Origin: Rhodococcus sp. IEGM 1409
GTDB taxonomy: Bacteria > Actinomycetota > Actinomycetes > Mycobacteriales > Mycobacteriaceae
Reading direction: 5' to 3'
Assembly (NCBI RefSeq): GCF_030056735.1
Contig: NZ_JASHKN010000002.1
Coordinates: 248,001-312,000 of the forward strand
DNA: 64,000 nt
A program made the translations under genes and the position numbers. Positions 1,547-53,827 of the stretch are shown here, piece by piece (the first letter of the stretch is position 1; every line of letters starts with the position of its first letter). A model generated the notes under the pieces. The model did no database searches. It saw only the letters and a program-made list of their open reading frames with translations, and was not told where the DNA came from.

Positions 1547-1680
1547 GTGCCGAAGATAGCAGTGCTCTGGTGAAAGTTTTGATTACACAGACGAAACAAA
1601 TTCGACCACGGTAAGAAATTATCGACGTGCTGAATAGTCCCGTACACGAAACACTTCCAGCTTCGGACGGAGATCGGCGC

Positions 1681-7638: not shown

Positions 7639-7668
7639 ACGAATGTCCGATTGCGTTAGCCTGCGCAG

Positions 7669-8133: not shown

Positions 8134-8148
8134 CGGGCGTTCAGTAAC

Positions 8149-8180
8149 TTTTACGGCCTTCTATCGACACTTTCGTAAAA
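8149..8180. promoter_or_regulatory. Inverted repeat upstream of lat, candidate Lrp site
   Basis: The arms TTTTACG (8149-8155) and CGTAAAA (8174-8180) form a perfect 7-bp dyad with an 18-nt spacer, ending 18 bp before the lat start. A further TTTTTACG lies at the end of lrpA (about 8119-8126). Repeated A/T-rich half sites are typical of Lrp-family operators. Assignment to this Lrp is inference. Confidence 0.4.
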
Positions 8181-8198
8181 TTGACATAATCTTCGCGT

Positions 8199-13038: not shown

Positions 13039-13045
13039 CGCGTCG

Positions 13046-14416: not shown

Positions 14417-15360
14417 GACAACCAGCCGGCATAGGTGGTCCACGACGGTCCCGCGTCCGGCGCGTCGGATCGGCTGACCGCCGCTTGGATCAGCCCGTAG
14501 GGACGATCCGCAGCGTGGAACACCTCGTTGTCGTTTTCCACACCGAAGCGGCCGAGTGCATATTCGAAATGATGCTTGTTGGGTGCTGAGAGTCGAACCT
14601 CCGCAATGATCGGGAATTCCTCGAGAATTGCCTTACCGATGTGGAAGAGCGTCTGCTGCAGGGCAAGTGAATGCACCTGTGCGAACTGTTTGACGATCTG
14701 TGCCTTGATGCCCACGTAGACCGATTCCCAGTCGACGTCGGTGGTGACAAATCGCCACTGGGCGACCAACGTCGTTGCCATGACCCGGTCGTCGGTCGGC
14801 TCGAGAACGGTGTACGGATCTTCGAGAAAACCCGAGAACTCACTACCTGTCGATTTGAGGATCACCAGGTCCTTCAAGCCGCCGATCACCCATGTCCCGG
14901 TATCGGAGAGGGTGATCGACGCCGTTCGAACTTCCTGACCCTTCCGAATCCAGGTGTAGTCGTGCTCGCTGCCGTCGACAACCGCACGCTCCCAGGCGTA
15001 TTCCTCGATCTCGATCCGCGCGCCACTGACCGGTTCGATGTCGTCGACGAAATGACGGGCGAGCTCGAGTCCGTACGTCTCGATCGAGATCAGTCCCTTT
15101 TCCTTGGCATAGGAATAGGCCGTTTGCTTCTGCGTGTCGGTCGGCAGAACCTTCGACTGATCACCGGTGAGGTACGCGTCGGCGAAATCTCCACGCAGGC
15201 AAGTGGAGACGTTGATGTCGTGAATCTCGTGACGGGGGGTGTCTCGATAGATTCGAACTACCCGATTTTCCGCTTTGCCGTACTGGTGACCCGATAGTTC
15301 GATGGATCCGCTCAACCGGTCGGTGTTCGTACTGCCGGTCGTGATGTTGTCGGTAGTCAC
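14413..15360 (-). CDS. uox: Urate oxidase (factor-independent uricase)
   Basis: 315 aa from the GTG at 15360, four bases after the uraH stop. It is a standard tunnelling-fold uricase of about 300 aa. Recognisable blocks are YGKAENRVVRIYRD, the Thr of VLPTDTQKQTAYSYAKEKG, the middle SGFLEDPYT and the late NKHHFEYALGRFG. It oxidises urate with O2 to 5-hydroxyisourate and H2O2, without a cofactor. Its products are handled by UraH and UraD, encoded just upstream in the same operon, so the whole urate-to-allantoin step set is present. Confidence 0.93.
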   Translation of the reverse strand: MTTDNITTGSTNTDRLSGSIELSGHQYGKAENRVVRIYRDTPRHEIHDINVSTCLRGDFADAYLTGDQSKVLPTDTQKQTAYSYAKEKGLISIETYGLELARHFVDDIEPVSGARIEIEEYAWERAVVDGSEHDYTWIRKGQEVRTASITLSDTGTWVIGGLKDLVILKSTGSEFSGFLEDPYTVLEPTDDRVMATTLVAQWRFVTTDVDWESVYVGIKAQIVKQFAQVHSLALQQTLFHIGKAILEEFPIIAEVRLSAPNKHHFEYALGRFGVENDNEVFHAADRPYGLIQAAVSRSDAPDAGPSWTTYAGWLS

Positions 15361-15364
15361 GTGT

Positions 15365-15694
15365 TCAGCTCCCGCGATAGGTGGAATAAGCAAAGGGCGA
15401 CAGCAACAACGGGACGTGATAGCCCCGCGCCATGTCGTCCACCCGGAAGGTCACTGTCACTTCCGGGTAGAAGTTCTCTTGTCCGTTGGACTCGAAATAC
15501 GTTCCGGTGTCGAAAGTCAGGGTGTAGTGACCGGCGGTCAGGCCGCCCGGAGCAAGTTCGGGGATGCGGCCGTCGGAGTCGGTCTCGGCAGTGGTGATCG
15601 TGGCGCCGCTTCGATCACGAAGCTCGACGCGAATCCCCGCCGCGGGATTGCCCGTCGTCGCGTCGAGAACGTGCGTGCTCAGGGACTTACTCAT
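15365..15694 (-). CDS. uraH: 5-hydroxyisourate hydrolase (transthyretin-like)
   Basis: 109 aa from the ATG at 15694 (overlaps the uraD stop, ATGA). It opens with the family signature LSTHVLDATTGNPAAGI and ends with the diagnostic C-terminal tetrapeptide YRGS. The catalytic His and Arg positions (H in STHVLD, R in GIRVELR) and the C-terminal YHVPLLLSP strand are conserved. It hydrolyses 5-hydroxyisourate from uricase to OHCU, the substrate of UraD. The length is normal for the family. Confidence 0.95.
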   Translation of the reverse strand: MSKSLSTHVLDATTGNPAAGIRVELRDRSGATITTAETDSDGRIPELAPGGLTAGHYTLTFDTGTYFESNGQENFYPEVTVTFRVDDMARGYHVPLLLSPFAYSTYRGS

Positions 15695-18345: not shown

Positions 18346-20142
18346 CTACTTCAGTTCTGCGAGAACCGTTCCCTGCGTGATTGCTGCACCCGGCTCGACA
18401 GACAGTCCGGTGACGACACCGGCCTTGTGCGCGTTGACGGGGTTTTCCATCTTCATGGCTTCGAGAACCGCGATCAGATCGCCTTCGGCGACTTCCTGGC
18501 CTTCGGTCACTGCGACCTTGACGACTGTGCCCTGCATCGGAGCGGTGACAGCGTCACCCGATGCTGCACCTCCGCCGGCGCCGCCGCGCTTGCGCGCCTT
18601 CGGCTTCTTGCGGATCGCACCGGAGGCTGCGCCGCCGCCGTTGCCGAGCGAGAACTGGCCCGGGAGAGAAACCTCGACGCGACGTCCACCGACCTCGACG
18701 ACGACGTTCTGACGCGGCAGAGCCTCGTCCTCGTCGTCGGCCGGGGCACCGGAACCGACGTACGGCTCGATGGTGTTTTCCCAGTCGGTTTCGATCCACT
18801 TGGTGTAGATGTCGAACTTCTCGCCGTCACCGACGAATGCCGGGTTCTCGACGATGTGGCGGTGGAACGGGAGGACGGTCGCGAGGCCGTCGATCTCGAA
18901 CTCGGCCAGGGCGCGCGATGCCCGCTGGAGGGCTTCTTCGCGGGTGGCTCCGGTGACGATGAGCTTGGCGAGCATGGAGTCGAACTGTCCGCCGATGACG
19001 TCGCCGGCGACAACCCCGGAATCGACGCGAACGCCGGGGCCTGTGGGCTCACGGTAGACGGAGACCGGGCCGGGGGCCGGCATGAAGCCGCGGCCGGCGT
19101 CTTCACCGTTGATGCGGAACTCGAAGGAGTGTCCACGCGGGGTGGGATCTTCCTTGATGGAGAGTTCTTCGCCGTTGGCGATGAGGAACTGCTGACGCAC
19201 GAGGTCGATGCCCGCGGTCTCTTCCGTGACGGGGTGCTCGACCTGCAGGCGGGTGTTGACCTCGAGGAAGGAAATGGTGTCGCCCTGAACCAGGTACTCG
19301 ACCGTTCCGGCGCCGTAGTAGCCGGCTTCCTTGCAGATGGCCTTCGCGGACGCATGGATGCGTGCACGCTGGTCGTCCGTCAGGAAGGGGGCGGGAGCCT
19401 CTTCGACGAGCTTCTGGAAGCGACGCTGCAGCGAGCAGTCGCGGGTACCGGCGACGACGACGTTGCCGTGCTGGTCGGCGATGACCTGAGCCTCGACGTG
19501 GCGGGCCTTGTCGAGGTACTGCTCGACGAAGCACTCGCCGCGACCGAAGGCTGCGATGGCCTCACGGGTTGCCGACTCGAACAGCTCGGGGATTTCCTCG
19601 ATGGTCTGCGCGACCTTCATGCCGCGTCCACCGCCGCCGAAAGCAGCCTTGATCGCAACCGGTACGCCGTATTCCTTGGCGAATGCGACGACCTCGTCGG
19701 CGCCCTTGACGGGATCCTTGGTGCCGGCGGCCATCGGTGCCTTCGCGCGCTCCGCGATGTGGCGAGCGGTGACCTTGTCGCCGAGGTCGCGGATGGACTG
19801 CGGCGAGGGACCGATCCAGATCAGGTTCGCGTCGATGACAGCCTGGGCGAAGTCGGCGTTCTCGGAGAGGAAACCGTAGCCGGGGTGGATGGCGTCGGCG
19901 CCGGACTTCTTGGCTGCGTCGAGGATCTTGTCGAACACGAGGTAGGACTCTGCGGACGTCTGTCCACCGAGGGCAAATGCCTCGTCTGCGAGCTTCACGA
20001 ACTGCGCTTCTGCATCGGGCTCGGCATAGACGGCAACGCTGCCGTAGCCGGCATCCTTGGCCGCCCGGATGACCCGTACCGCGATTTCACCGCGGTTCGC
20101 GACAAGCACCTTCGTAATGTGCGCGCTGGCATGACTGGGCAC
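18346..20142 (-). CDS. accA3: Acetyl-/propionyl-CoA carboxylase alpha subunit (biotin carboxylase + BCCP)
   Basis: 598 aa from the GTG at 20142, with AGGAGG about six bases upstream. Upstream in-frame codons to 20274 lack family similarity. The domains are a biotin carboxylase N-domain ([18 protein letters not shown]), ATP-grasp (about 120-330, with [13 protein letters not shown]), a biotin carboxylase C-domain, and a C-terminal biotinyl domain with the biotinylation lysine in [10 protein letters not shown]. It is the shared alpha subunit that works with AccD beta subunits, here AccD5/AccE5 at 30094-32072, to make malonyl- and methylmalonyl-CoA for fatty and mycolic acid synthesis. BirA (32188) would attach the biotin. 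In M. tuberculosis it follows sufE directly; here an acyltransferase gene intervenes. Confidence 0.95.
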
Positions 20143-20280
20143 TGAGCCTCCTGTGGTTCGCATAGTCTGTCTCCGCGGTGTATTCCTCTGGGATTTCACC
20201 ATCGGGGGATTGGCATCACTTCGGAGTGTATGCATCGCTTCGGCGCTGGTTGTAACCGGATCGCTAAAGCCCACTCCGGC

Positions 20281-21681
20281 TTAGGAAACGGTTTCGAAAA
20301 CTACCGACGAGTAGCTGTCGGAGGTATCTGCGTCCGGTTCGGTGACGATTTCTTCGACGGTCCGGCGCAGTGCGGCCACGTAGGCGTGGACCGCTGCATT
20401 CGCCGTCTCGTTGCCTGGGTACCTGACTGCGAGGTTGAGGCCCTGGGGTGTGCGGTTGATCCAGATGTAGACGTCGTGCGTGTATGCCTTGCTTCGGAGC
20501 GCTCTAGCGTTCCATTCGGGCCATTGAGCTGCCTCGGGTACAAAGCGAACGTCCATGTAGGACACCACGAATCGCGGTCGGATGGGCGTTCCGAGGTGTT
20601 CGCCGATCCGATCGAACGGGACAGCGGCGGCTGGCTTGACCGAAGCGATCGAGTCGGCGGCGCGCTTCGCGAGGTCGCCGAACGAACAGTCCGATCCGAC
20701 CATGAACTCGACCGGGCACAGTCCGACGAACCAACCGAGAGCACCCGCCCATTCCTGGGCGCTACGGGTGTGAACCGGAGTCACGACCTCGAATCGATCG
20801 GCTGCCGCGACTTCGCGACCGACAGCGGCAAGACCGCCGAGCAGTCCGGCGAAATACCCCACGCCTGAGGCTGCGCACGTAGAACTGAAGGCCTTGGACT
20901 GGTCAGCGTCGAGAAGCCAGGTCGACAAGCCGTTCTGAGATTCGTTTCCACGTTCACCGATCGGTAGCGGGAACTGGGGTAACCCGTCACTGCCGAGCGC
21001 GCCGCGCCAGATCTCGACGGCAGCCTTTTCGGCCTCCATATCGGCCATATGCTCGCGCTCGACGGCACCGAAATCGACGTAGCTGCCCACGGGAAACAGA
21101 TTCGCCGCACTGCCGGTCGCCGCCTCGCGGTACAGCGCTGCGATCTCGTGAGCGACGAGCACGATGGAGAAACCGTCGATGATCGAATGGTCCGCCGCGA
21201 AGAACACGGTGAACGGGCCGTCGCCGCCTCGCGGCGTCAACGTCGCGAAGACGTACGACGGCCAGCTGTGCGGCGACGCGTAGTCGTCGAACAGGCGGTG
21301 AAGGTGATCGAAGTTGTCCTGGCTGGACGCGTCGTAGCCGTGGCTGACGACTCCGATGTCGATGCCGCCGAGCGGGACCGTGTGCCGGGTGATCTCGCCG
21401 CTCGAAGGCTCGAGAACGGTATGCGAGCGCAGAACTTCGTGACGATCGATCCAGCGACCGAGAGCAACTCGGAACGCATCGACGTCGAGCGGGCCAGAAA
21501 TCTCGAAAGCTGTTCCCAGCCAAGACTTGTCGCCTGCGCCGGCAGCGGAACGGTTGAGATGTGCCTCGTGAATGTAGGAGACGGGCCGCGGATCCGGAAC
21601 CCAGGGCCCGGTTGCGCACGGCAACCATTCGACGAGTGCGCCGGCCGGAATCGCATAGTCGGCCAGTTCGGTGAACTCCAT
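20281..21681 (-). CDS. PapA/condensation-domain-like acyltransferase A
   Basis: 466 aa with the fold markers of polyketide-associated (PapA) acyltransferases and NRPS condensation domains. The active-site motif is DHSIIDG (164-170; H165 and D169 in the HxxxDG positions), preceded by RHEVLRSHTVLE and followed later by FVVSYMDVRFVP. Such proteins transfer acyl groups from CoA or carrier proteins to sugars or alcohols of envelope lipids. There is no signal peptide. It starts 4 nt after sufE and is followed by accA3, so it probably shares their transcript. The acceptor is unknown. It shares motif architecture with the two genes at 23123-26079. Confidence 0.78.
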   Translation of the reverse strand: MEFTELADYAIPAGALVEWLPCATGPWVPDPRPVSYIHEAHLNRSAAGAGDKSWLGTAFEISGPLDVDAFRVALGRWIDRHEVLRSHTVLEPSSGEITRHTVPLGGIDIGVVSHGYDASSQDNFDHLHRLFDDYASPHSWPSYVFATLTPRGGDGPFTVFFAADHSIIDGFSIVLVAHEIAALYREAATGSAANLFPVGSYVDFGAVEREHMADMEAEKAAVEIWRGALGSDGLPQFPLPIGERGNESQNGLSTWLLDADQSKAFSSTCAASGVGYFAGLLGGLAAVGREVAAADRFEVVTPVHTRSAQEWAGALGWFVGLCPVEFMVGSDCSFGDLAKRAADSIASVKPAAAVPFDRIGEHLGTPIRPRFVVSYMDVRFVPEAAQWPEWNARALRSKAYTHDVYIWINRTPQGLNLAVRYPGNETANAAVHAYVAALRRTVEEIVTEPDADTSDSYSSVVFETVS

Positions 21682-21685
21682 GTTT

Positions 21686-22102
21686 TCAGCCCCGCAAGTG
21701 CCGCTTGATGCGCGCGAGCATGGCCGACATTCCGCGCAGACGGAGCGGGCTCACAGCTTCTGCGAGACCGAGCGCCGAATAGAAGTCGTCGGGTACACCG
21801 AGAATCTCGTCGGCGCTGTGGCCGTCGAGCCCCTGCGCGAGGATCGATGCGAAACCACGCGTCGTGGGAGCCTCGGGGGGAGCGCTGAAGTACAGACGGA
21901 CGTTGTCGCGGTCCGAATCGTCGACCGAGAGGAACAGCGGTGACTGGCATTCGGGGACCGGCTCCATCGCGCTCTGCTCGAGCTCCGCCGGCAACGGCGG
22001 TAGCTCTCGGCTGAACTCGAGGAGAAGGGTGAGCTTGTCCGAGGCGCCGACGGCTGCGAAGTCGTCGACGATCTCGGCCAGAGCCGAAGGTAGAGCGCTC
22101 AT
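21686..22102 (-). CDS. SufE-family sulfur acceptor protein
   Basis: 138 aa from the ATG at 22102, overlapping the sseA stop by 4 nt. The conserved SufE cysteine is C52 in [13 protein letters not shown], with the family segments [17 protein letters not shown] and [19 protein letters not shown]. SufE proteins accept persulfide sulfur and pass it on for Fe-S cluster assembly. Pairing with a rhodanese (sseA) suggests a sulfur relay between the two. It corresponds in position to Rv3284 of M. tuberculosis. Confidence 0.88.
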
Positions 22103-23004
22103 GACACCGATACGGAGGAAGGAACGGCGCCGGGCTCTTCGCCCTGGACGATCGGGACGCGCACGGCATTGCCCCACTCGGTCCAGGAACCGTCGTAGTT
22201 GCGAACGTTCGGGTAGCCGAGAAGGTGGGTCAACACGAACCAGGTGTGGCTGGAACGCTCACCGATGCGGCAGTACGCGACGATGTTGTCGTCGGCCGAC
22301 AGGCCGCCGTAGATCTCGCTGAGTTCGGTGCGGGTGCGGAAGCGGCTGTCCGGTGCCGCTGCCTTCGCCCACGGGATGCTGAGAGCGCTGGGAATGTGTC
22401 CACCGCGCAACGCACCCTCTTCGGGGTAGTCGGGCATGTGAGTGCGCTCGCCGGTGTACTCCTGCGGAGATCGCACGTCGATGAGCGGCCCGTCGCCCAA
22501 GTGTGCGAGAACGTCGTCCTTGAATGCGCGGATGGGAGCGTCGTTGCGCTCGACGACCGGGTAATCGGTGGACGTGGTCTCGGGAACGTCGAAAGCGGTG
22601 TCACGGTTCTCGGCGATCCACGCATCGCGGCCACCGTCGAGGAGACGGACGTCCTCGTGGCCGAACAGTGTGAAGACCCACAGTGCGTAGGCGGCCCACC
22701 AGTTGCTCTTGTCGCCGTAGATGACCACGGTGTCGTCGCGGCTGACGCCCTTGCGGTTCATCAACTCCGCGAACTTCGCACCGTCGATGTAATCGCGGGT
22801 GACCGGATCGTTGAGGTCGAGGTGCCAGTCGATCTTCACGGCGCCGGGGATGTGGCCGACGTCGTACAACAACACGTCTTCATCGGATTCGACGACCTTG
22901 AGGCCCGGCGCACCGAGATTCGCCGAGAGCCATTCCGTCGAGACCAACCGGTCGGGATGCGCGAACTCGGCAAACGCGGTTGAGGGATCGGGGGCAACGG
23001 GCAC
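22099..23004 (-). CDS. sseA: Sulfurtransferase (two-domain rhodanese)
   Basis: 301 aa from the GTG at 23004 with AGGAG seven bases upstream; the extension to 23073 is not conserved-looking. Two rhodanese domains are present. The first (about 18-135) is inactive-type with [11 protein letters not shown] (Asp instead of Cys). The second (about 160-285) has the active C245 in the loop [12 protein letters not shown]. It moves sulfane sulfur from thiosulfate or mercaptopyruvate to thiol acceptors. It is translationally coupled to the SufE gene, as in mycobacteria. Confidence 0.92.
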
Positions 23005-23122
23005 GGGCGTACTCCTGAAGACGAATCGTTCGGTTCGAACACGGACTTGATCGATTCTATGCGCTGTGCGCAAGGTGAGACGCCCGGAAGCAGGTTCTGC
23101 CTGCTCGTACCCGTTGCCGAGA

Positions 23123-24586
23123 CTAAATTCTCGGTGTTCCTGCTCCGACGCTCGAATCTCTCAATTGTTCGGTGACACTTCCGATCGGCGTCACGCCCCG
23201 GGCGCAGACCTCTCTGAGAATTCGGTCGAGCTCGGTGAGGAAATTCACCATGGTTTCGTTTGCGGTGTCGGTGTCCGGGAAGCGAGAGCGCAGCGACAGG
23301 CCACGGTTCGTCCGCGAAATCCAGAACTGGGCATCGTCGGCGACTGTCACATTGCTGATGTGATGAGCGTTGAGGAGGTCGTGATCGTCGGTGCCGGGCA
23401 GTTTGCGGTAATCGATGTACGACACCATGAAAACGTCGGTGCGTGTGCGTCGAATCTTGTCGCCCAAAGCATCTCGAACCTGAGCCATGGTGACGCCCTC
23501 GAGTGTCAACGCAACTCGGAACGACGCGTGCGTATGTGCAAGTGATGCACCGAAGTCCGCATCGGGAGTGATCTGCACCGTGATCGGCGCACTCGTGGTG
23601 AGCCAACCGATCGCGTCGGCCCATCGCGGATCTTTGCGGATGTGAAGCGGAAATTGCAGCGGAAGCGTCGACTGTCCGGTGTGTGAGTGAACGGAAAGGC
23701 CCATCGCAGTGAGGATTCCGGTGAACACGCTACCGCCGGCGGAAAGGCAGATCTCGTCGAACGTCGCCGTCAGTTCCTCGTCGAGCAGCACGCGCACATC
23801 GGCGCCCTGCGGGGCGGGCTTTCCTCCCTCGACGCCGAGATCCAAGGGGAAACTCGGCGATGTACCACCGCAGATCTCGTAGAACCTGGCCCACTCGCGG
23901 ATTCGGGGGTCGTTGTCCACGGGAAGCAGAGCGTCGGCCTCCAATTCGCAGTACCGCACGAAACTTCCCGGGTCACCCAGTCGGTCCATCACTGCGTCGA
24001 CGGCCTCGCGGTCGCTGAGTTCGGGGAGGACGATCAGTCCCTCGTAGATCTGTCGAAGTTCCCCGAGGGCGATGACCAACGAATAGCCGTCGACGAGTGT
24101 GTGATCGAACGCGCTCAGGACCGTGTAGTGCTCTTCGCGTTCGACCGTGGCAAACGTGTAGGCGGGGAAGGTCAGTGGATCGCACACCGTCGTGAATCGC
24201 TTCTTGAGGTGCGCTCGGAGGTCCTCGGTGGAATCGAATTTCAGAGGTTCCGAGGTCTCGATGTGTGTGCCGTCGGGGTCGAGTCCCATTCGGGTGGTGG
24301 TGAACTTGCCCACCTCGAATCCCGTGTGCAGCGTGTCATGGCGACTGATGAACAGGCGCAGCCCGAGATCGAGTGCCGGCCGATTCAGTTCGCCGGGAAG
24401 GTCGAATGCGGCTGCCATCCACACGCTCCGGCCCATGCCGTGTGTTCGCGCAGTTTCGAGATGAAAATGCTGGTTGTACGACGGTGGTACTTTCGACTCC
24501 GTGACGGCGCCGTCAGCGGGTTGAAGCGACCATTCGGTGACGATTCCGGGCTCGAGTCCGTATCGATCGATCGAGGTGACATGCAT
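23123..24586 (-). CDS. PapA/condensation-domain-like acyltransferase B
   Basis: 487 aa from the ATG at 24586, which shares one base with the stop of acyltransferase C (TGATG), so translation is coupled. It has the condensation-fold motif DHTLVDGYS (161-169; H162, D166, G167), a donor-site-like [12 protein letters not shown] block, and the later [13 protein letters not shown] that parallels gene A. An intact HxxxDG predicts an active acyl- or amino-acyl-transfer enzyme. It is separated from sseA by 118 bp on the same strand. An in-frame open stretch upstream to 25063 lies within gene C and was not included. Confidence 0.78.
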
Positions 24587-26079
24587 CAGGACACTCCCTC
24601 TGGTGCAGAGAACGAGTAGTCGCCCTGAGCTGCAACAGTTTTGATGATATTGGAGACGTGCTCGGCGAAGCGGTCGGCCGACTCGTGGGCAATGGGGGTG
24701 TCGGGGTGTGACACTGCGATCCACGTGCCGGTGTGCATCCGGTTGATCCACATCGACGCGATCTGAGTCTCTTTGCCGCCGACGATTCCCGTTGCCTTCG
24801 TCTCGGCGTAACTGTATGGATCCGGCATGCGTCGACCGTCGATGTACGAGACGATCGGCGGCGGGGTGAGGGTCTTCGACAGTCCGCCGGGAGCGGAATC
24901 CGAGTCGGCCAAGCTCGACAGAACCAGGTCGATGACTTGCTGCACAGAGACATCCAGCAGTGCCTTGCCGTCGTGGTAACCCTGCTGCCCGACTTTCGCC
25001 AACTCGGTGAAACGTCGTTTGTCGTCGACGTCGATGCCGACGGGGATCAGATTGATGTACCAACCCTGCGCAAACGAGTCTGCCTCGGTTCGCGTGCTGA
25101 CCGGCGAGAGTGCGATGTACTTGTCGCGCCCGGCCAGTTCGAATTCCGCGATCGCGAGGGCGGCGAATATCCCACCGATGAAGTTGGCGCCGTTGGCTTT
25201 ACAGATCGCACCGAATTTTTCGCACTCGGTGTCGTCGGCCAAGTCGAAGCGTGAACCGATAGCCGGTTTGGGGGCGTCGTCGGCGCCGAGCGGGAGGGGA
25301 AATCCGGGGAATGAGCCGCCGCTGCGCATCAGGTAGCCGAGCCACTGATGCACTGCGGGTGACTGCATCGTCAGCTCGGTTGTTCGCGCGCGCTCGACAC
25401 GACCGAACTGTGCGTAACTTCCTGACGGCCCCAGCTCGGGATGTGACCCGGTCGTTTCCGCTGCGTACAGCTGACGCAATTCTGCGTACATCAGCACCAT
25501 CGAGTTCATGTCCGAATGAGCATGGTCGACGGCGTGAAACAGGGTGAAACTCGGCTCGGCTTCCGTGTCGGTGTGATCGTGCTCGACGGCGCCGAAAACG
25601 AATGCCGGCCACTGCAGCGCGCTGGTTTCCGTGGCGAACTTGGTGGCGACGAGCGCGCGGATCGCCTCGGATTCGGAGACGTCGTCGCCGATGCGGTACT
25701 CGAGCTCGATGCTCTCGACCGGCACGACGTGGCGACGGACCTCGAACGAGGTGTCCGCTGCGTCGGTGGTGGCCTCGTCGAAGGAGAACCAGCTGTGCAG
25801 CGTGTCGTGGCGACGGACGTAGCGCTGCAGGGCTCGCGTCATGGCGTCGCGGTCGAGGGTTCCGGCGAAATCGAAGGCGATACCGATCCACGGAGACTGA
25901 GGATCGCCCTTCTCCGCGGTGACGCGGGCACGTCGCAGGTGGCGATCCTGCATCGTGGTCGGGGGTAGTTCTCGGTCGATCTCAGCTTCGGCGGCTCGCT
26001 GAGCGGAAGCATGCGTGACGCCCCATTCGATTACCCGTCCAGGAAGCGGGTGCCAATGGGTGATCAAGTTCAGATCCAT
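24586..26079 (-). CDS. PapA/condensation-domain-like acyltransferase C, altered active-site motif
   Basis: 497 aa with the same fold markers as genes A and B: YVRRHDTLHSWFSFDE, a PIVSYIDGRRMPDP block near the C-terminus and WINRMHTGTWIAVSHP. The active-site motif reads DHAHSDMNS (185-193). The His (H186) and Asp (D190) are kept, but the usual Gly after Asp is Met191. It may be active, have different specificity, or act as a partner of gene B, with which it is translationally coupled. It is the first gene of the minus-strand run C-B-sseA-sufE-A-accA3. The divergent promoter region with the DHA2 exporter is 26080-26228. Confidence 0.72.
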   Translation of the reverse strand: MDLNLITHWHPLPGRVIEWGVTHASAQRAAEAEIDRELPPTTMQDRHLRRARVTAEKGDPQSPWIGIAFDFAGTLDRDAMTRALQRYVRRHDTLHSWFSFDEATTDAADTSFEVRRHVVPVESIELEYRIGDDVSESEAIRALVATKFATETSALQWPAFVFGAVEHDHTDTEAEPSFTLFHAVDHAHSDMNSMVLMYAELRQLYAAETTGSHPELGPSGSYAQFGRVERARTTELTMQSPAVHQWLGYLMRSGGSFPGFPLPLGADDAPKPAIGSRFDLADDTECEKFGAICKANGANFIGGIFAALAIAEFELAGRDKYIALSPVSTRTEADSFAQGWYINLIPVGIDVDDKRRFTELAKVGQQGYHDGKALLDVSVQQVIDLVLSSLADSDSAPGGLSKTLTPPPIVSYIDGRRMPDPYSYAETKATGIVGGKETQIASMWINRMHTGTWIAVSHPDTPIAHESADRFAEHVSNIIKTVAAQGDYSFSAPEGVS

Positions 26080-26188
26080 CGAGTAGAACTCCTGCGTGTG
26101 TCGTCGAGAAGCCTGCTCTGAAAATGGGCAGACGACGAACTATCCCATCTGCGGGACTGAATTGTCCGAAATACTACAATCTAAACAG

Positions 26189-26203
26189 GAACAGGTTCTA
26201 GAA
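26189..26203. promoter_or_regulatory. Small palindromes in the acyltransferase C / exporter intergenic region
   Basis: GAACAGGTTC (26189-26198, 4-bp arms) overlaps the perfect 8-bp palindrome TTCTAGAA (26196-26203), 26 bp before the exporter start. They could be an operator for the divergent pair, but no regulator gene is adjacent and the arms are short. Confidence 0.25.
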
Positions 26204-26228
26204 GGGTCGTGTCGTTTAGGATCATTCG

Positions 26229-27926
26229 ATGCTTCCGGACCCTTTAGGTGACGCTGTCGGCGCCGACCACAAGGGCGGACGGCGATCCACTTCTCTGACA
26301 CCCTGGCTCGGTTTGGCCACGAGTCTGGCGGCCGCGTTCATGCAGCTGCTCGACGCGACCATCGTCAACGTCGCGCTTCCGAGCATCGCCGTCGATCTTC
26401 GAGCCGGCGTCTCAGCGCAGTTGCTCATGGTCAGCGTGTACATCCTGGCCTTCGCGTGTTCATTGATCACCGCGGCCCGACTGGGGGACCTGTTCGGTCG
26501 CAGAGTTGTATTTCTGACGGCCCTGTCCGTATTCGTCGCGGCCTCGTTGCTGTGCGGGCTCGCTCAGAGTGCGACGATGTTGATCGTCTTCCGCGGCCTG
26601 CAAGGGCTGGCGGCAGGTTCGATGTCCGCGCAGACATTTGCCATCATCTCGGGTCTGTTCCCGAAGGCGAGGCATCCGCGGGTGTTCGGGATCTACGGCG
26701 CGACGATAGGCCTGGCAACGGTCAGTGGACCCCTGGTCGGCGGGCTGCTCATCGAATGGAATCTCTTCGACTGGGGTTGGCGCCTGATCTTTTTTGTCAA
26801 CGTCCCCATCGGTATCGCCGCCTTGATCCTGGGGTTCTTCCATCTCGTCGATGCTCGCGCGGAGCATGTGCGCTCGCTTGACCTCATCGGCGCTGCGCTG
26901 TCGTCGCTGGCGCTGTTCTTGCTGATCCTTCCCCTGGCCGAGGGGAGGGCGCGTGGATGGCCCGCAGAGCTGGTGGTAATGCTCGCGATGTCTGTGCCGG
27001 TGGCATTGGCCTTTGTGCTCTACGAATCGCGTCTGGGGAAACGAGGCGGCGATCCTGTCCTTCGTCTCGAGCTTTTCCGCGACCGAGCCTTTGCCATCGG
27101 TGCGATTCTTGCGTTCGTATTTTTCGGGACCTTGACTTCGCTGATCTTCACCATCAGCCTGACGCTGCAGTTCGGATTCGGATTCTCCGCGCTGAGAGCC
27201 GGCGTGATGACGCTGCCGTGGGCCGTCGGTATGGGTGTGGCGGCGGTTCTCTCATCGGCGGTGTACCGGATGCTCGGAAACCGTGTCCTGATTCTGGGGA
27301 TGGTGGTTTTTGCCGGCTCGCTGATCGCGTTGTCCGTCATCCTCGAACACGAGGGAACTGATCCACGCTGGCTAGCGCTTGCCGGGCCACTGCTTCTCGG
27401 AGGCGCTGGGCTGGGACTGTTCGTGGCACCTCTGCAAACCGCGATCCTCGCGACGGTCGAGCCCGCGCACGCAGGTTCGGTGTCCGGGCTTCTCCCGACC
27501 GTTCAGCAAGTCGGTAGCTCCATCGGACTGGCATTGATCGGCGTGGTGTTCTTCTCGCTCGTGGCAGGGCAGGCGCCGCAAGCGGTGCAGGGGGAGCGGC
27601 CTGAATACGTTGAGCAACTCGAAGCGGCCGACGTGAGCCCTGGCCTCGTCGACATCGCAGAAAAGGCCTTTGTCGATTGTGCGACAAGTCAATTGACATC
27701 CGGAACGCCGATGGAGGTGGCGCCGGAATGTCGCCGCGACGGCTCCGCTGGTGCCGGGGGTCAATCCGTTCAGGTGGCAGTTGATGCCGCGTACGCATCC
27801 ACTCGGGCCGCTGCCGGCGAAGCATTTCTCGAAGCTCAGCGCCGTGTACTCGCGATCATCGCAGCAATTGCGCTCGGCATCGGATTGGCCTCGACTGCCC
27901 TTCCTCGGGTCAATTCGTCAGTCTGA
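26229..27926 (+). CDS. DHA2-family MFS exporter (14 TM, EmrB/QacA type)
   Basis: 565 aa with about 14 membrane helices. It carries the DHA2 family motifs LLDATIVNVALPSI (motif D1 region, helix 1), ARLGDLFGRR (motif A, loop 2-3) and the GATIGLATVSGPLVGGLL motif C in helix 5. A long, soluble, charged loop (about 455-520, between helices 13 and 14) is characteristic of this family. Members export drugs, lipids or siderophore-like compounds using the proton gradient. It is divergent from the acyltransferase C-B pair, so it may export their product; that is inference. The start at 26229 is an ATG. Confidence 0.88.
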   Translation: MLPDPLGDAVGADHKGGRRSTSLTPWLGLATSLAAAFMQLLDATIVNVALPSIAVDLRAGVSAQLLMVSVYILAFACSLITAARLGDLFGRRVVFLTALSVFVAASLLCGLAQSATMLIVFRGLQGLAAGSMSAQTFAIISGLFPKARHPRVFGIYGATIGLATVSGPLVGGLLIEWNLFDWGWRLIFFVNVPIGIAALILGFFHLVDARAEHVRSLDLIGAALSSLALFLLILPLAEGRARGWPAELVVMLAMSVPVALAFVLYESRLGKRGGDPVLRLELFRDRAFAIGAILAFVFFGTLTSLIFTISLTLQFGFGFSALRAGVMTLPWAVGMGVAAVLSSAVYRMLGNRVLILGMVVFAGSLIALSVILEHEGTDPRWLALAGPLLLGGAGLGLFVAPLQTAILATVEPAHAGSVSGLLPTVQQVGSSIGLALIGVVFFSLVAGQAPQAVQGERPEYVEQLEAADVSPGLVDIAEKAFVDCATSQLTSGTPMEVAPECRRDGSAGAGGQSVQVAVDAAYASTRAAAGEAFLEAQRRVLAIIAAIALGIGLASTALPRVNSSV

Positions 27927-27935
27927 GAATTGCCA

Positions 27936-27963
27936 TTGACTCGAACGTGTGTTCGAGTATTAT
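27936..27963 (+). promoter_or_regulatory. Promoter with LexA (SOS) box upstream of the HNH gene
   Basis: TTGACT (27936-27941) and TATTAT (27958-27963) with 16-bp spacing fit a sigma-A promoter. Between and overlapping them lies TCGAACGTGTGTTCGA (27941-27956), an exact fit to the actinobacterial SOS box TCGAAC-N4-GTTCGA. LexA bound here would block RNA polymerase, predicting DNA-damage induction of the gene starting at 27988. Confidence 0.75.
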
Positions 27964-27987
27964 TAGGGGTGGGGATCGGGGGATTCA

Positions 27988-29307
27988 ATGAGTGTTCTGT
28001 TGTCGGACGTGGTGTCGGGTTCTGCGGCCGGGTTGCGCGGACGTCTGTGGCGGTTGTCTGCTGCTGAGTTGCGTGCGGCTGCGGTGTCGGCGAGTGCGGA
28101 GATTCTGCGTCTGGAAGCGGTGCGGGTGGCGGTGGTGGACGAACTGTCGATGCGCCCGGATGATCAGGTAGTCGCGTGCCGCGGTGTCGGTTCGTGGTTG
28201 GCAGGCAACACGATGCTGCAGGTTCGGGACGGGAAGAAGATCGCCGCCCTCGGTGCGGCGCTGCGGCCGTTTCCGGCGGTGGCAGCGAGATTTGATTGCG
28301 GGGATTGCTCGTTCGATCACGCTGTGCTGATCGTCTCGTTTTGCGAATCCCCGCCGAAGGGGATGCCGGAGGAGGCGTTACCGCGCTGTATCGACTTGTT
28401 GCTTGCTGCTGCGTCGGGGGTGGAGGCGACGACGACGAAGGTGCGGCATGTGATCGCGACGTTGGAGCGAGTGTTCGAATCCGATGAGATTCCGCCCGCC
28501 GAAGACGTCGACCGGAACGAGCTCCGTATCGCGTCGACGCTCAATGGCCGGGTGGTGGTGCGCGGGGATTTCGATGCTCTCACCGGCGAAATGTTGCTCT
28601 CGGCGTTGTCGAATTTGACGATGCCGACCCCGGCGGCGGATGGAACCCCCGATGCACGGTCGGCGGCGAAGCGGACGGCGGACGGGTTCACCGAACTGAT
28701 CCGCCGCTATCTGGATTGCGCGAAGACCGGTACCGACGGTGGGCAGCGTCCGCACGTGAACGTGCACATCAACGCCCGGGACCTTGCTGAGCATCGGGAC
28801 TGCGCCGCTTCTACTGCTGCTGATGTGGACGACGAAGGCTCACTTGATCTGGACGTGTCGGATCTCGATGTCGGGCATATGCCGTGGTTGGGGCCGCTGT
28901 CGGTCTCGCAGACGAGGTTGTGGGGGTGTGACTGTTTCCTCTCGACCGTCCTACTCGACGATCACGGCGCACCGCTCGATGCGAAACCCGGAAAACGGTT
29001 GGTCACCGCCGAACAACGTGTCGCGTTGATCGCCCGCGACAAGGGCTGCGCGTTCCCCGGGTGTACGTGTGTGCCGGCGTGGACGGATGCGCACCATATT
29101 CGGCACTGGGCGAACGGTGGTCCGACGGTGATGACCAACCTGGTCCTGCTGTGCCGTTCGCATCACCGGTTGATGCACCGCACATCCGGGTTCGCCGGGA
29201 AATGGGCGATCCGGATCGGCGTCGACAACAAACCGTGGTTCATCCCGCCGCCCTCGATCGACCCGCAGCAGCACCCGCGACCGGCGAACACCACATTCAA
29301 AACCTGA
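27988..29307 (+). CDS. DUF222 / HNH endonuclease domain protein (13E12 family)
   Basis: 439 aa. The N-terminal and middle part is DUF222 (about 1-330), rich in Ala and Leu helices. The C-terminus has an HNH nuclease motif with Cys ligands (about 350-405: CAFPGCTCVPAWTDAHHIRH, then NLVLLCRSHHRLMH). These 13E12-repeat-family proteins are multicopy in mycobacteria and rhodococci; their exact job is not settled, though DNA-damage-linked nuclease activity is suspected. The LexA box in the promoter supports that. It is absent at this place in the mycobacterial gene order and was probably inserted together with the neighbouring exporter and acyltransferases. Confidence 0.85.
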   Translation: MSVLLSDVVSGSAAGLRGRLWRLSAAELRAAAVSASAEILRLEAVRVAVVDELSMRPDDQVVACRGVGSWLAGNTMLQVRDGKKIAALGAALRPFPAVAARFDCGDCSFDHAVLIVSFCESPPKGMPEEALPRCIDLLLAAASGVEATTTKVRHVIATLERVFESDEIPPAEDVDRNELRIASTLNGRVVVRGDFDALTGEMLLSALSNLTMPTPAADGTPDARSAAKRTADGFTELIRRYLDCAKTGTDGGQRPHVNVHINARDLAEHRDCAASTAADVDDEGSLDLDVSDLDVGHMPWLGPLSVSQTRLWGCDCFLSTVLLDDHGAPLDAKPGKRLVTAEQRVALIARDKGCAFPGCTCVPAWTDAHHIRHWANGGPTVMTNLVLLCRSHHRLMHRTSGFAGKWAIRIGVDNKPWFIPPPSIDPQQHPRPANTTFKT

Positions 29308-29336
29308 AGGCGCAAACCTCCGCGGGGACAACAGAA

Positions 29337-29381
29337 ACGACCAGCTTCGCATCAGCATGGACTCGATGGGGGGCTGGTCGT
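29337..29381. terminator. Possible bidirectional hairpin between convergent HNH and maf genes
   Basis: ACGACCAGC (29337-29345) and GCTGGTCGT (29373-29381) form a perfect 9-bp stem with a 27-nt loop. It lies in the 126-bp convergent gap after the HNH gene. The loop is long and there is no T-tract, so a terminator role is tentative. The gap also holds a short direct repeat TGCTTGGAGAA (about 29403 and 29417). Confidence 0.3.
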
Positions 29382-29433
29382 CGTGCTGGAGAAATGTTCG
29401 GTGCTTGGAGAAGTCGTGCTTGGAGAAAACGCG

Positions 29434-30075
29434 TCAGAAGATGCTCTGCGTGCGCCAGAGATCCGAGACGGAAACCCCAACGCGCTCGAGAAGTGTTCGC
29501 ACCAAAGGTAATCCGATGCCGATGACACTCGAGGGATCACCCTCGATCCTCTCCACGAACCAGCCGCCGAGACTGTCGAGGGTGAAGGCTCCGGCAACTT
29601 GGAGTGGTTCTCCGGTTGCCAGGTATGCCTCGAGATCCTCGGTGGAAGGTTGTGCAAAATGAACGACCGTTGCGCTGTGATCTGAAGCCATGCGAACGAT
29701 GCGGCCGTCGGCCACGCGCAGGACACAGTGCCCGGTCAAGAGGGTGGCGCTGCGACCGGCCATTGCCGCCCATCGCTTGCGGGCGATATCGACGCTGCCC
29801 GGCTTACCTTGAAGCTGCCCGTCGATCAGGAGCATCGAATCGCACCCGACTACCACGACGTCGGTGAGATTGTCTGCGGCGAGGCCGGGGACGATTTCGG
29901 CGGCCTTGGCTTCGGCCAACACCGTCACGACTTTTTCGGGAGCCGCGTCCGGACCGAGGTTGTCGGCAATCTTGTCCTCGTCGACACCGGAGACACGGAC
30001 AAGCGGCGAAACCCCGGCCGCCCGCAGAACTGCGAGGCGAGCCGGGGACGCTGAAGCTAGAACCAGTTGAGTCAC
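29434..30075 (-). CDS. maf: Maf/Ham1-type nucleoside triphosphate pyrophosphatase
   Basis: 213 aa. The Maf signature LVLASASPARLAVLRAAG sits at the N-terminus, with the catalytic acidic motif VVVGCDSMLL and the middle AGRSATLLTGHCV. Maf proteins hydrolyse non-canonical or excess dTTP/UTP/CTP to the monophosphate and are linked to septum control. It is 18 nt downstream of accE5 on the same strand, the same neighbour as Rv3282 in M. tuberculosis, so it is likely part of the accD5-accE5-maf operon. Confidence 0.93.
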   Translation of the reverse strand: MTQLVLASASPARLAVLRAAGVSPLVRVSGVDEDKIADNLGPDAAPEKVVTVLAEAKAAEIVPGLAADNLTDVVVVGCDSMLLIDGQLQGKPGSVDIARKRWAAMAGRSATLLTGHCVLRVADGRIVRMASDHSATVVHFAQPSTEDLEAYLATGEPLQVAGAFTLDSLGGWFVERIEGDPSSVIGIGLPLVRTLLERVGVSVSDLWRTQSIF

Positions 30076-30093
30076 GTCAGCAGATACTGATTG

Positions 30094-30435
30094 TCAGCTG
30101 CGACGGATCGCGGGGTTCAGGTACGCGTACGGCGAGAACGGCGCACGCGTGCGGTGGAACTGAGTCGGGTCGCCCCACGTCTCCGCGGGAATGTTGGACT
30201 CGGGAGCCTGACCGCTGCCGGCAGCCGCAGCGAGCACACTGACCAGTGCCGCAATCTCGACGTCCGTGGGCGAACCCTTGACGATCTTGATGACCGACGC
30301 GTCGGATGTCGACGTCTCGGTCAGCTCGGTGAGCGCGGCGTCCGTCGTGCTTCCCTCGACGACCGCACCGTTGGTCGGTGCAGTCTCCGCCAGTGCGACA
30401 TCTTCGCTGAGAATGTCCTCGGTGGTTGCGGTCAT
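30094..30435 (-). CDS. accE5: Acyl-CoA carboxylase epsilon subunit
   Basis: 113 aa. The start overlaps the accD5 stop (ATGA). It has an acidic, Thr/Ala-rich N-terminal half and the conserved C-terminal part [20 protein letters not shown], ending in the W-x-tail ([15 protein letters not shown]). Epsilon subunits occur only in actinobacteria and stabilise or activate the AccA3-AccD5 complex. The N-terminal extension of about 45 residues is low complexity, as is usual in this family. Confidence 0.88.
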
Positions 30436-32072
30436 AGGGGAATGTTCCCATGCTTCTTGGGCGGAAGGGAAACGGCCTTGCGCTCGAGCAGTCGCAATGC
30501 GGAGACGATTTGTCCGCGGGTGTGCGAGGGAGGAATGACTGCGTCGACGTATCCGCGCTCAGCGGCGACGTACGGGTTGACGAGTGTGTCCTCGTACTCG
30601 TTCTGCAGCTTGAGGCGCAGCGCATCGACGTCTTCGCCGTTCTTGGCGGCTTCGAGAAGCTGCTTGCGGTAGACGAATCCGACTGCTCCGGATGCACCCA
30701 TGACGGCGATCTGAGCGGTGGGCCATGCCAGGTTGACATCGGCGCCCATGTGCTTGGAGCCCATGACGTCGTACGCTCCGCCGTAAGCCTTGCGGGTGAT
30801 GACCGTGATCTTGCCGACCGTTGCTTCGCCGTACGCGTAGAGGAGCTTCGCGCCGCGGCGGATGATGCCGTTGTATTCCTGCTCGGTGCCAGGGAGGAAG
30901 CCGGGAACGTCGACGAGGGTGATGATCGGGACGTTGAACGCGTCGCAGGTGCGCACGAAGCGAGCGGCCTTCTCGGAGGCGTCGATGTCGAGGCAGCCGG
31001 CGAACTGGGTGGGCTGGTTGGCGACGATGCCGACCGAGCGTCCGTCGACGCGACCGAAACCGACGATGATGTTCATCGCGCGCTCGGCCTGGACCTCGAG
31101 GAACTCGTCGTCGTCGAGGATACGACGGATGACCTCGTGCATGTCGTACGGCTGGTTGGCCGAATCCGGGATGAGGGTGTCGAGTTCGATGTCCTCGGCG
31201 GTCAGGTTGTCTTCGATCGAACCGACGATCGGGTCGGTGATCTCGCCGCGGGGTGCTGCTGCCTGGTTGTTGGACGGCAGGTAGCTGAGCAGGTCCTTGA
31301 CGTAGTCGAGTGCGTCCTGCTCGCCGGAAGCGACGTAGTGGGCGACACCGGACTTGACCATGTGGGTGCGAGCACCGCCGAGGTCTTCCATCGTGACGTC
31401 TTCACCGGTGACCGTCTTGATGACGTCGGGGCCGGTGACGAACATCTGGGAGGTCTCGTCGACCATGACGACGAAGTCGGTCAGCGCGGGGGAGTACACG
31501 TGGCCGCCGGCGGCGGGTCCCATGATCAGTGAGATCTGGGGGATGACACCCGAGGCCTGGACGTTGCGGTGGAAGATCTCGCCGTAGAGGCCGAGCGAGA
31601 CGACACCTTCCTGGATGCGCGCGCCTGCACCTTCGTTGATGCCGACGAGGGGGCGACCGGTGCGGATCGCGAGGTCCATGACCTTGACGATCTTCTCACC
31701 GTAGATTTCGCCGAGCGATCCGCCGAAGACAGTGGCGTCCTGCGAGAAGACGCAGACGTCGCGGCCGTCGATGGTGCCGTAACCGGTGACGACGCCGTCG
31801 CCGACCGGGCGGTTGTCTGCGAGACCGAAGTTCACACTTCGGTGCCGTGCCAGTGCGTCGAGTTCGACGAAGGAACCCTCGTCGAGGAGGGCGGTGATGC
31901 GCTCGCGGGCGGTCAGCTTGCCTTTGGCGTGCACCTTGTCGATGGCGGCTTCGCCGCTCGGTGCCTGCGCCTGGGCTTGGCGATTCCGCAGGTCCGCGAG
32001 CTTTCCCGCGGTCGTGTGGATATCGGGTGCGGCCGCCGCCTCCGGCGCGTTCGGCTCTTGGACAGTGGTCAT
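30432..32072 (-). CDS. accD5: Propionyl-CoA/acyl-CoA carboxylase beta subunit (carboxyltransferase)
   Basis: 546 aa from the ATG at 32072; upstream in-frame codons to 32258 are not conserved-looking. It has the two crotonase-type halves of the carboxyltransferase (about 40-290 and 295-546). Acyl-CoA and biotin oxyanion-hole glycines are visible in [23 protein letters not shown] and [14 protein letters not shown]. With AccA3 it carboxylates propionyl-CoA (and acetyl-CoA) to methylmalonyl- or malonyl-CoA in the cytosol. It is followed by accE5 and maf and is divergent from birA. Confidence 0.94.
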
Positions 32073-32187
32073 GGACGTGAGCTTAACGAGAGTGTGTGGG
32101 GGGCTTCGAAGGCAGGTCCGATTGTCGCGGTTTCGTGGGCTCAAGCTACTGACCAGTACATTCTCGTCGTCGTCATAGGCTGGGGCT

Positions 32188-33042
32188 ATGTGGACCGACT
32201 TGAACCGACCGCCCCTCGACGGCAATGCCCTACGCCGCGCACTCGTGCGCAGTGACAACGACGACGCGCGCGTTTTCTGGAACCGCCTCGACGTTGTCGA
32301 GGAGACCGGTTCGACGAACGCGGATCTCCTTGCGCGAGCGGCAGATCCGGATGCCGACCGTCATGTTCTGATCGCCGAATATCAGGCGAGTGCGCGCGGC
32401 CGTCATTCGCGCACTTGGGTGAGTCCGCCGCAAGCGCAGATCTCGATGTCGGTTTTGTTGTCGATGCCCGGCATGAATCTCGCAGACATGGGCTGGCTGC
32501 CGCTGCTGTCGGGAATCGCGGTCGTCGACGCCCTGCGCAACGTGGCCGAGGTGCCCGCAGAACTCAAGTGGCCGAACGACGTTCTCATCGGTGACAAGAA
32601 GGTGGCCGGAATTCTGGCCGAGGTGGCAAGGACAGCGCCCGATCCCGCGGTGGTGGTGGGCATCGGGCTGAACGTGAGCTTGGGTGTCGAGGAACTGCCC
32701 GTCCCGACCGCCACATCGCTCCTGATCGAAGAAGCATCGACCGTCGACCGTGACACCCTCGTTCGAGCACTCGCCCGCGAGTTGGCGACTCAATTCCGTG
32801 CTTGGGAATCATCGAAATGGGATACATCTGTGTTGGCTGCCGAGTACCGGCAGCGCTGCGGGACGCTGGGTAAACGAGTCCGCGCGGTTTTGCCGGGCGA
32901 CAAGGAGGTGTTCGGTATCGCGACCGACGTCGACACTTCCGGGCGCGTCGTCATCGAAATCGAGGGAACAGAAGGAGAGACCTTTGCGGTCGCAGCGGGT
33001 GACATCACACACCTTCGGGCCGCACCAGTAACCGAATCGTGA
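32188..33042 (+). CDS. birA: Biotin--[acetyl-CoA carboxylase] ligase (monofunctional BirA)
   Basis: 284 aa. The biotin-binding loop [14 protein letters not shown] (a variant of GRGRxGR) and [17 protein letters not shown] with the catalytic lysine are present. A C-terminal SH3-like domain (about 225-275) completes the enzyme. The N-terminal DNA-binding HTH of E. coli BirA is missing, so it is a ligase only and not a repressor. It biotinylates the AccA3 lysine. Divergent from accD5 with 115 bp between, as in mycobacteria. Confidence 0.93.
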
Positions 33043-46948: not shown

Positions 46949-47014
46949 CCCTTCAGGTTACTGGTTCGATGCTCGACCGCGGGTACCTCGACACGGCGTG
47001 CCAGACTGAACCGT

Positions 47015-47854: not shown

Positions 47855-47897
47855 GCATTGTTCGGGGCAGTGCCCGCGGACGGCTAGGCTGACCGGC

Positions 47898-49891: not shown

Positions 49892-49923
49892 TCGTTAGCT
49901 GACCTACTGGAATACTGGCGGGT

Positions 49924-50697: not shown

Positions 50698-50709
50698 GGC
50701 AGCCCGGCT

Positions 50710-51270: not shown

Positions 51271-51273
51271 GAC

Positions 51274-53775: not shown

Positions 53776-53827
53776 CTCAAATGTGTCATTCCAACCGCTA
53801 CTTGTGAGTTCACTTGCAGCGGGGCCG

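Follow-up and report, generated by a model that had tools for sequence, protein, structure and literature searches.

Three old PapA-type acyltransferase classes and a linked DHA2 exporter in the rhodococcal acyl-CoA carboxylase block: a putative trehalose lipid surfactant locus

Introduction

The closest described systems are the mycobacterial sulfolipid-1 (SL-1) and diacyltrehalose/polyacyltrehalose (DAT/PAT) loci, which encode PapA1, PapA2 and PapA3 with Pks, FadD and MmpL proteins (PMC4183827). Here we describe a locus of Rhodococcus sp. IEGM 1409 in which three genes of PapA type (papA_a, papA_b and papA_c) and a DHA2-family major facilitator superfamily (MFS) exporter lie within an acyl-CoA carboxylase (acc) block; it was analysed in a stretch of 64,000 nucleotides (contig NZ_JASHKN010000002.1, positions 248,001 to 312,000), hereafter the window. 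Like the mycobacterial loci, it combines PapA-family enzymes with a nearby exporter, and an acyltrehalose is its most likely product. Unlike them, it has paralogue classes a, b and c, a DHA2 MFS exporter and a housekeeping gene context, and the window contains neither an MmpL gene nor an open reading frame (ORF) of polyketide synthase (PKS) size: 60 ORFs were called, and the two largest, of 902 and 950 amino acids (aa), encode a molybdenum hydroxylase and an FtsX permease.

Trehalose lipids are typical rhodococcal surfactants, of interest for oil clean-up and medicine, and their genetics have been called little or poorly understood (PMC7502451, PMC8396431). TlsA of Rhodococcus sp. SD-74, a homologue of papA, is an acyltransferase putatively involved in making succinoyl trehalose lipids, and four papA genes of Rhodococcus sp. 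I2R are listed as candidate succinoyl-trehalolipid genes (PMC8396431). To judge by gene lengths and spacing, the I2R cluster is a four-gene sister form of the present locus as found in strain KRD197, which shares over 98% average nucleotide identity with I2R (PMC8396431): the I2R genes measure 1461, 1431, 1404 and 1488 bp with start spacings of 1478, 1434 and 2911 bp (PMC8396431), and those of KRD197 1461, 1431 and 1488 bp with spacings of 1478, 1434 and 2930 bp, the papA_b frame being broken. An initial annotation of the window, which had called such a lipid 'not described' for this locus, went too far in this respect. In the text examined, the I2R account does not contain the words 'carboxylase', 'accA3' or 'sulfurtransferase', tests no gene, and gives no exporter or glycosyltransferase neighbours and no cross-genus comparison (PMC8396431). 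Among the titles, abstract openings and passages covered by our literature search, which was thin in subscription journals, none tied these papA genes to the acc block or to an MFS exporter. The gene families themselves are already known. As far as the searched literature shows, what is new is the occurrence within the carboxylase block of a three-class cassette with a DHA2 partner, and the connection drawn between its gene content and the structure of the lipid.

We lean, with slightly better than even confidence, toward reading the locus as an assembly and export line for a biosurfactant of the succinoyl-trehalose-lipid (trehalose tetraester) type. The initial annotation had suggested that the set builds and exports a lipid such as an acylated trehalose or another glycolipid, and a product of this kind, moved out by a dedicated exporter, remains the best reading of a function that we infer.

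Results

Three PapA-type acyltransferases and an exporter

All genes have the positions, order and strands that the initial annotation gave them. The system itself consists of the following features:

24586..26079, minus strand: papA_c, stand-alone condensation-fold acyltransferase, 497 aa, motif DHAHSDM
23123..24586, minus strand: papA_b, PapA-type acyltransferase, 487 aa, motif DHTLVDG; PF00668; clade b
20281..21681, minus strand: papA_a, PapA-type acyltransferase, 466 aa, motif DHSIIDG; PF00668; clade a
26229..27926, plus strand: DHA2-family MFS exporter, 565 aa; TIGR00711, PF07690
26080..26228: 149-bp spacer separating the divergent papA_c and exporter genes; presumed from its coordinates to be a shared control region

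Each papA product is a single condensation-type domain outside any nonribosomal peptide synthetase (NRPS), and each scored above the PF00668 cut-off of 30.6 bits (papA_a 77.6, papA_c 61.4, and papA_b 55 bits, the last obtained on an over-long ORF), in agreement with the earlier assignment to PapA/condensation-fold acyltransferases. That listed ORF, 23123-25063, is too long; with the real start at 24586, the papA_b ATG overlaps the papA_c stop by one base, as in 28 of the 77 c-b pairs measured across loci with start codons picked by script. The papA_a start lies 4 bases past the sufE stop, and the minus-strand genes are closely packed throughout.

Three motif blocks recur: RHEVLRSH, DHSIIDG and VSYMD in papA_a; RHDTLHTG, DHTLVDG and VSYID in papA_b; RHDTLHSW, DHAHSDM and VSYID in papA_c. 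The motif layout said to be common to the three enzymes thus holds for DHxxxD and VSYxD, but RHDTLH is confined to papA_b and papA_c, and the glycine of HxxxDG, present in papA_a and papA_b, is absent from papA_c and from many relatives. DHxxxD, with the active-site His and Asp, occurs in all 311 PapA proteins gathered, these three among them; the set omits stretches with an internal stop, more than 620 aa or fewer than 350 aligned residues (for example, one row each from L044 and L025; L and G numbers are our labels for loci and genomes).

PapA2 is the best solved relative of papA_a (128.6 bits) and papA_b (114.7 bits), and papA_c has the predicted condensation fold. PF00668 is the NRPS condensation domain family, with 66 matches in this genome, and the proteins might form amides, as stand-alone domains of a peptide pathway, instead of sugar esters. 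We give this almost no credence, since PapA2 far outscores NRPS condensation domains by both sequence and fold, and the window has no NRPS-sized ORF. Together, these data support the assignment of papA_a, papA_b and papA_c as PapA-type acyltransferases. The four genes of the system are under purifying selection, with ratios of nonsynonymous to synonymous substitution (dN/dS) of 0.04-0.15 over seven species pairs.

The three classes are old paralogues

The initial annotation suggested that the three genes arose by duplication. Their pairwise identity is 27-29%, and in a tree of 84 of the 311 proteins (one per group of >66% identity) a, b and c each fell on one side of a branch, with SH-like approximate likelihood ratio (SH-aLRT) supports of 99, 100 and 99. 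Each clade contains members from Amycolatopsis, Saccharopolyspora, Rhodococcus, Gordonia, Nocardia and Williamsia, and a second tree with bootstrap (52 rows, 42 of them hand-chosen and 10 new) gave the same three-clade result. Because the three old clades each reach Amycolatopsis and Saccharopolyspora, the enzymes form an old set of three-way paralogues extending to Pseudonocardiaceae; local or recent duplication is rejected on the low identity and the three old clades. A further likeness to the SL-1 and DAT/PAT loci is that clade c also holds nine PapA genes (100/99) lying at most 1.5 kb from ORFs of 2097-2334 aa in two other genera, ORFs that are PKS-sized by length.

One a-c-b cassette is present in Amycolatopsis anabasis, Saccharopolyspora sp., Nocardia harenae, N. 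takedensis, two Gordonia and Millisia brevis; in A. anabasis (L119 6046-17530), MMPL transporter genes flank it on either side. IEGM 1409 itself carries another, distant a-c-b cassette on contig 11 (778062-782324; L011 7039-11316), each gene of which is closest to its namesake (42, 39 and 35% identity). Its neighbours are a flavin oxidoreductase, a zinc dehydrogenase, a 60Kd inner membrane protein and a LuxR-type regulator, and 5/28 genus genomes had a match to its a gene at E <= 1e-100.

Single records carry a broken gene that is intact in relatives (papA_b in L088 7071-8488, the exporter in L019 13248-14886, papA_c in L025 6547-8014), through either assembly error or decay. A tblastn search with papA_c of 72,556 plasmid records (E 1e-20) gave three matches to condensation proteins of 24-25% identity over 90-95% of the length (NZ_CP121661.1, NZ_LT984809.1 and NZ_CP016951.1; Sinorhizobium and Cupriavidus). 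With just these distant matches, plasmid spread of papA_c was rejected.

Genomic context and forms of the locus

The neighbouring genes, of which accA3, accD5, accE5 and sseA carry the names used in the initial annotation, are as follows:

22099..23073, minus strand: sseA (rhodanese), PF00581; co-directional neighbour of the papA genes
21686..22177, minus strand: sufE, PF02657; 4 bp from papA_a
18346..20274, minus strand: accA3-type biotin carboxylase/biotin carboxyl carrier protein, PF02786, PF00289, PF02785, PF00364; true start probably near 20142
27988..29307, plus strand: DUF222/HNH gene, PF02720, PF01844; outside the system
29434..30075, minus strand: maf, PF02545; borders the variable interval in this genome
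30094..30435, minus strand: accE5-like short gene, identified by position and matches in relatives
30432..32258, minus strand: accD5-type carboxyltransferase, PF01039

In transcription order the minus strand reads accD5-accE5-maf-papA_c-papA_b-sseA-sufE-papA_a-accA3, the exporter lying on the opposite strand between maf and papA_c. ORFs were called with a home-made rule based on GC at third codon positions, which misplaced opposite-strand ORFs in places (L121, L127, L128). The host genome, of 6.1 Mb, belongs to the R. erythropolis/qingshengii clade, and its papA_a is 95-96% identical to the copies of R. qingshengii IEGM 1359, Rhodococcus sp. P-2 and R. erythropolis NBRC 15567.

The genus comparison proposed earlier was run and found the locus conserved across Rhodococcus genomes, with a papA_a match at E <= 1e-100 in 24/24 of those of good quality. 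Two principal forms can be distinguished. In form I, that of the window, exporter-c-b occupies the maf-sseA interval and a stands between sufE and accA3; named loci are those of R. erythropolis, qingshengii, globerulus, koreensis, opacus, wratislaviensis, tibetensis and jostii, and of Prescottella defluvii Ca11 (a second record named P. defluvii, L138, has papA_a alone). In form II, found in Rhodococcoides and relatives, an extra a gene (a2) stands ahead of c-b. The two cases read as far as maf, R. fascians NBRC 12155 and KRD197, have the order maf, WS/DGAT-like, GT28, WS/DGAT-like, a2-c-b-sseA-sufE-a-accA3, the WS/DGAT label resting on HxxxDG and very weak profile matches (E 0.25 and 0.0036); R. 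corynebacterioides has two GT28 genes ahead of a2-c-b, and maf after b. Other named loci, Prescottella equi and R. gordoniae among them, have papA_a only. The arrangement is not due to chance: further genomes of the genus have the same order, and its genes are under the selection described above.

The form II proteins of ~450 aa (L172 15557-16945 and 18305-19654; L173 6810-8156 and 9579-10955) are nearly invisible to Pfam and NCBIfam; the two from L172 both have HxxxDG and are mutually 34% identical, and these proteins may represent a new branch within the WS/DGAT/condensation superfamily. L134 (Kitasatospora arboriphila NRRL B-24581) has the Williamsia muralis gene order at near-equal identities, and L092 (Rhodococcus ruber IEGM 1391) has the Rhodococcoides form II; both records are possibly contaminated or misnamed.

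Two further suggestions of the initial annotation fared less well: firstly, proximity to the carboxylase is a poor clue to substrate, as the acc block lacks any papA match in 21/40 loci retrieved from other genera of the family (18 genera; 1 to 3 loci each, genera g2, g4 and g15 left out); secondly, the DUF222/HNH gene was rejected as a system part, being found in 3/25 loci that have exporter-c-b, each from the erythropolis/qingshengii clade. Recent gain of a horizontal island was likewise rejected: GC is 0.57-0.67 across 12000-38000, with no base-composition step seen, and papA_c and exporter orthologues occur in 24/28 genus genomes. In M. tuberculosis, according to the initial annotation, accD5-accE5-maf-sseA-sufE-accA3 (Rv3280-Rv3285) are contiguous. 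A literature search on the accD5-accA3 order of that species found nothing, and no mycobacterium was among the best 80 of 99 matches of the named-genome scan.

Elsewhere in the window, 1627-15393 encodes purine/urate degradation (xanthine/uracil permease, molybdenum hydroxylase and flavin adenine dinucleotide subunit, amidohydrolase, uricase), and 46700-59446 encodes sugar-nucleotide and F420 functions (RmlD-like reductase, nucleotidyltransferase, GDSL lipase, F420 ligase, CofD, phosphomannomutase, phosphomannose isomerase).

The exporter is present, and has been lost, together with papA_c and papA_b

The exporter scored 233.7 bits against TIGR00711 (cut-off 230.2). Counted on a model with a predicted local distance difference test (pLDDT) score of 72.7, it has 14 membrane helices, an assignment of moderate confidence. 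EmrB heads its Foldseek matches, QacA and EfpA are also among its hits, and it is 26-29% identical to EfpA entries. From EfpA, EmrB and Rv1410-type DHA2 transporters it differs in its papA linkage and in a conserved cysteine pair in the last loop (Cys484 and Cys501, both invariant).

Since the DHA2 family is rich in drug pumps, the exporter could be a drug or general efflux pump that happens to sit beside the papA genes, the acyltransferases alone making the lipid. Its distribution argues otherwise. In 85 loci with both maf and sseA, exporter, papA_c and papA_b are all present (25) or all absent (60); the thresholds were at least 55% identity for the exporter and 50% for papA_c and papA_b, below which the form II copies fall, and some genomes were counted twice. 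The 24 genomes with papA_c orthologues are the same 24 that have the exporter; both are missing from G016 and G023, which retain papA_a, and from G017 and G020, which are only 74-75% complete. In IEGM 1379 (L070 8419-8661), the maf-sseA gap contains 109 bp that are 80% identical to the papA_b 3' end of L069, and strain ARC_M6, whose papA_a is 97-99% identical to that of the deletion strains, has the full set. Because this papA_b scar remains and a near relative is intact, the trio was lost together, recently, in one lineage. L020 also carries a scar of a lost exporter-c-b set between maf and sseA.

Outside the genus, 131 genomes yielded 23 exporter relatives at E <= 1e-110, of which 19 adjoin a papA_c-like gene, 18 in another, tandem orientation and one in form I (L035); the four without such a neighbour are in G044, G069, G038 and G100 (one of two copies, near a contig end). 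In a tree of 51 rows the tandem pairs lie elsewhere in clade c than form I, so the pairing is either ancestral or was formed twice. Such pairs (L151-L153, L155-L167) occur in several other genera of the family, with no adjoining ORF of >1200 aa listed. Given this joint presence and loss, and the pairing in two parts of the c tree, we regard an unconnected efflux pump as quite improbable.

Locus glycosyltransferases appear to follow reported sugar number

Reported products include a trisaccharide succinic tetraester of R. fascians NBRC 12155 and a pentasaccharide succinic octaester of Nocardia corynebacteroides SM1 (PMC4365757), the succinoyl 2,3,4,2'-trehalose tetraester of R. wratislaviensis BN38 (PMC7077702), and succinoyl di- and trisaccharide esters of I2R (PMC8396431); trehalose lipids are generally produced on hydrocarbons (PMC7502451). 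NCBI taxonomy equates Nocardia corynebacterioides with Rhodococcoides corynebacterioides. Our L079 is R. fascians NBRC 12155 itself and L115 is NBRC 14404, a different strain of R. corynebacterioides.

By comparison of positions alone, a PF06722 glycosyltransferase lies within the locus, before the papA genes, in 7/7 genomes whose papA genes are in form II or in a stand-alone cassette, against 0/6 for form I; the remaining two of the 15 genomes searched (L070, L104) had none in range. Form I occurs in species with reported disaccharide esters. In neighbour cluster C1, five of eight proteins scanned belong to glycosyltransferase families; the three without a match are WS/DGAT-like or miscalled. 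A locus glycosyltransferase where lipids have at least three sugars, and none where they have two, is the strongest functional hint, drawn from few strains. Locus and chemotype coincide in a single identical strain (R. fascians NBRC 12155), within one species for KRD197 and I2R, and at species level in R. erythropolis, R. opacus and R. wratislaviensis; R. qingshengii VT6, of a species with the locus, is glycolipid-negative.

Evidence that weighs against a succinoyl trehalose lipid locus

Several observations count against the proposed function. Firstly, the 30 flank ORFs scanned, of the 60 called, included no recognised trehalose, glycosyltransferase, succinyltransferase or acyl-activating family; their only sugar genes are housekeeping mannose and rhamnose sugar-nucleotide genes. 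Secondly, all 15 genomes have GT28-type genes elsewhere, and therefore none at the locus does not mean none in the genome. Thirdly, 'papA2' mRNA of R. opacus S8 was independent of carbon source, hexadecane leaving it unchanged (PMC9229178); the quantitative PCR primers match R. opacus papA_b (L073) without mismatch, with a predicted amplicon of ~220 bp against 150 printed. Fourthly, glycolipids were not detected in R. qingshengii VT6 (PMC9229178), and the sequenced R. qingshengii representative (L066) carries the locus. In addition, the exporter's relatives include drug pumps, and the chemotype links rest on few strains.

Finally, to judge by similarity scores, TlsA fits none of papA_a, papA_b and papA_c. 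Its published E-values against the I2R genes run from 8e-70 to 8e-30 (PMC8396431), whereas our three genes gave stronger best values against KRD197 (3e-165, 7e-93 and 1e-90), E-values being dependent on database size, set here at 1.7 million residues, and KRD197 papA_b being compared by its second piece only. This comparison did not uphold an identification of TlsA with papA_c. The nearest pattern is that of the second-cassette papA_b (2e-78 to 4e-30), a likeness judged from E-values.

These points bear on a rival in which the product of the locus is another acyltrehalose, a constitutive one of the cell envelope, DAT/PAT-like with ordinary fatty acids, and succinoyl trehalose lipids come from TlsA or the second cassette. 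The carbon-independent expression of the R. opacus papA_b homologue (PMC9229178), the close packing with housekeeping genes, and a second cassette whose b gene best approximates the TlsA similarities all favour it. We nevertheless judge it unlikely, since the five genomes with a second-cassette a gene all also have a window-type papA_a of 95-100% identity, R. opacus and R. wratislaviensis make such esters too, and form II fits the reported trisaccharide succinic esters.

A sulfated acyltrehalose was also considered, in which an Stf0-type sulfotransferase would make trehalose-2-sulfate for PapA acylation, as in the SL-1 route. The closest solved relative is indeed PapA2, this genome has one Stf0-family gene (contig 56), and a trehalose 2-sulfotransferase is listed for R. 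opacus S8 (PMC9229178). Stf0-family genes are nevertheless present in 16/28 genus genomes, and 9/24 of those with papA_c and the exporter have none; this route is weakened and, in our view, very improbable.

Discussion

In the assembly and export line that we favour, PapA_a, PapA_b and PapA_c would act as three non-redundant CoA-dependent O-acyltransferases, each placing medium-chain acyl groups on different trehalose hydroxyls. Trehalose would be supplied from elsewhere in the cell and acylated at the inner membrane face, and the 14-helix DHA2 exporter would then carry the acylated product outward; an enzyme encoded outside the locus may supply the succinyl group. What we infer is that trehalose is the acceptor and acyl-CoA the donor, that each enzyme serves a single position, what the exporter carries, and that the products are the succinoyl trehalose lipids.

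More tentatively, the accD5-accA3 stretch may serve in Nocardiaceae as a glycolipid island whose gene content sets surfactant structure, with position-specific PapA classes and the number of GT28 genes setting the sugar count. The three PapA classes would have separated before the Pseudonocardiaceae/Mycobacteriales split; the locus GT28 count would be 0 in Rhodococcus (disaccharide), 1 in R. fascians (trisaccharide) and 2 in R. corynebacterioides (a species with a reported pentasaccharide); and exporters would have been exchanged among DHA2 MFS, ABC-2 and MMPL types. In R. fascians, four PapA and two WS/DGAT-like proteins add up to six acyltransferases of condensation type, the same number as the acyl groups counted in the reported lipid, an agreement that may be coincidence.

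The annotations 'condensation domain protein' and 'MFS transporter' mask an old, conserved and testable glycolipid locus. Its compact, genus-wide form, the strains in which part of it has been lost naturally, and the naturally occurring range of lipids from two sugars upward make the question testable. If the proposal is true, PapA proteins would be recast as an older three-enzyme sugar-acylating cassette, beyond the mycobacterial polyketide synthase partners, and a DHA2 MFS protein would be a transport partner other than MmpL.

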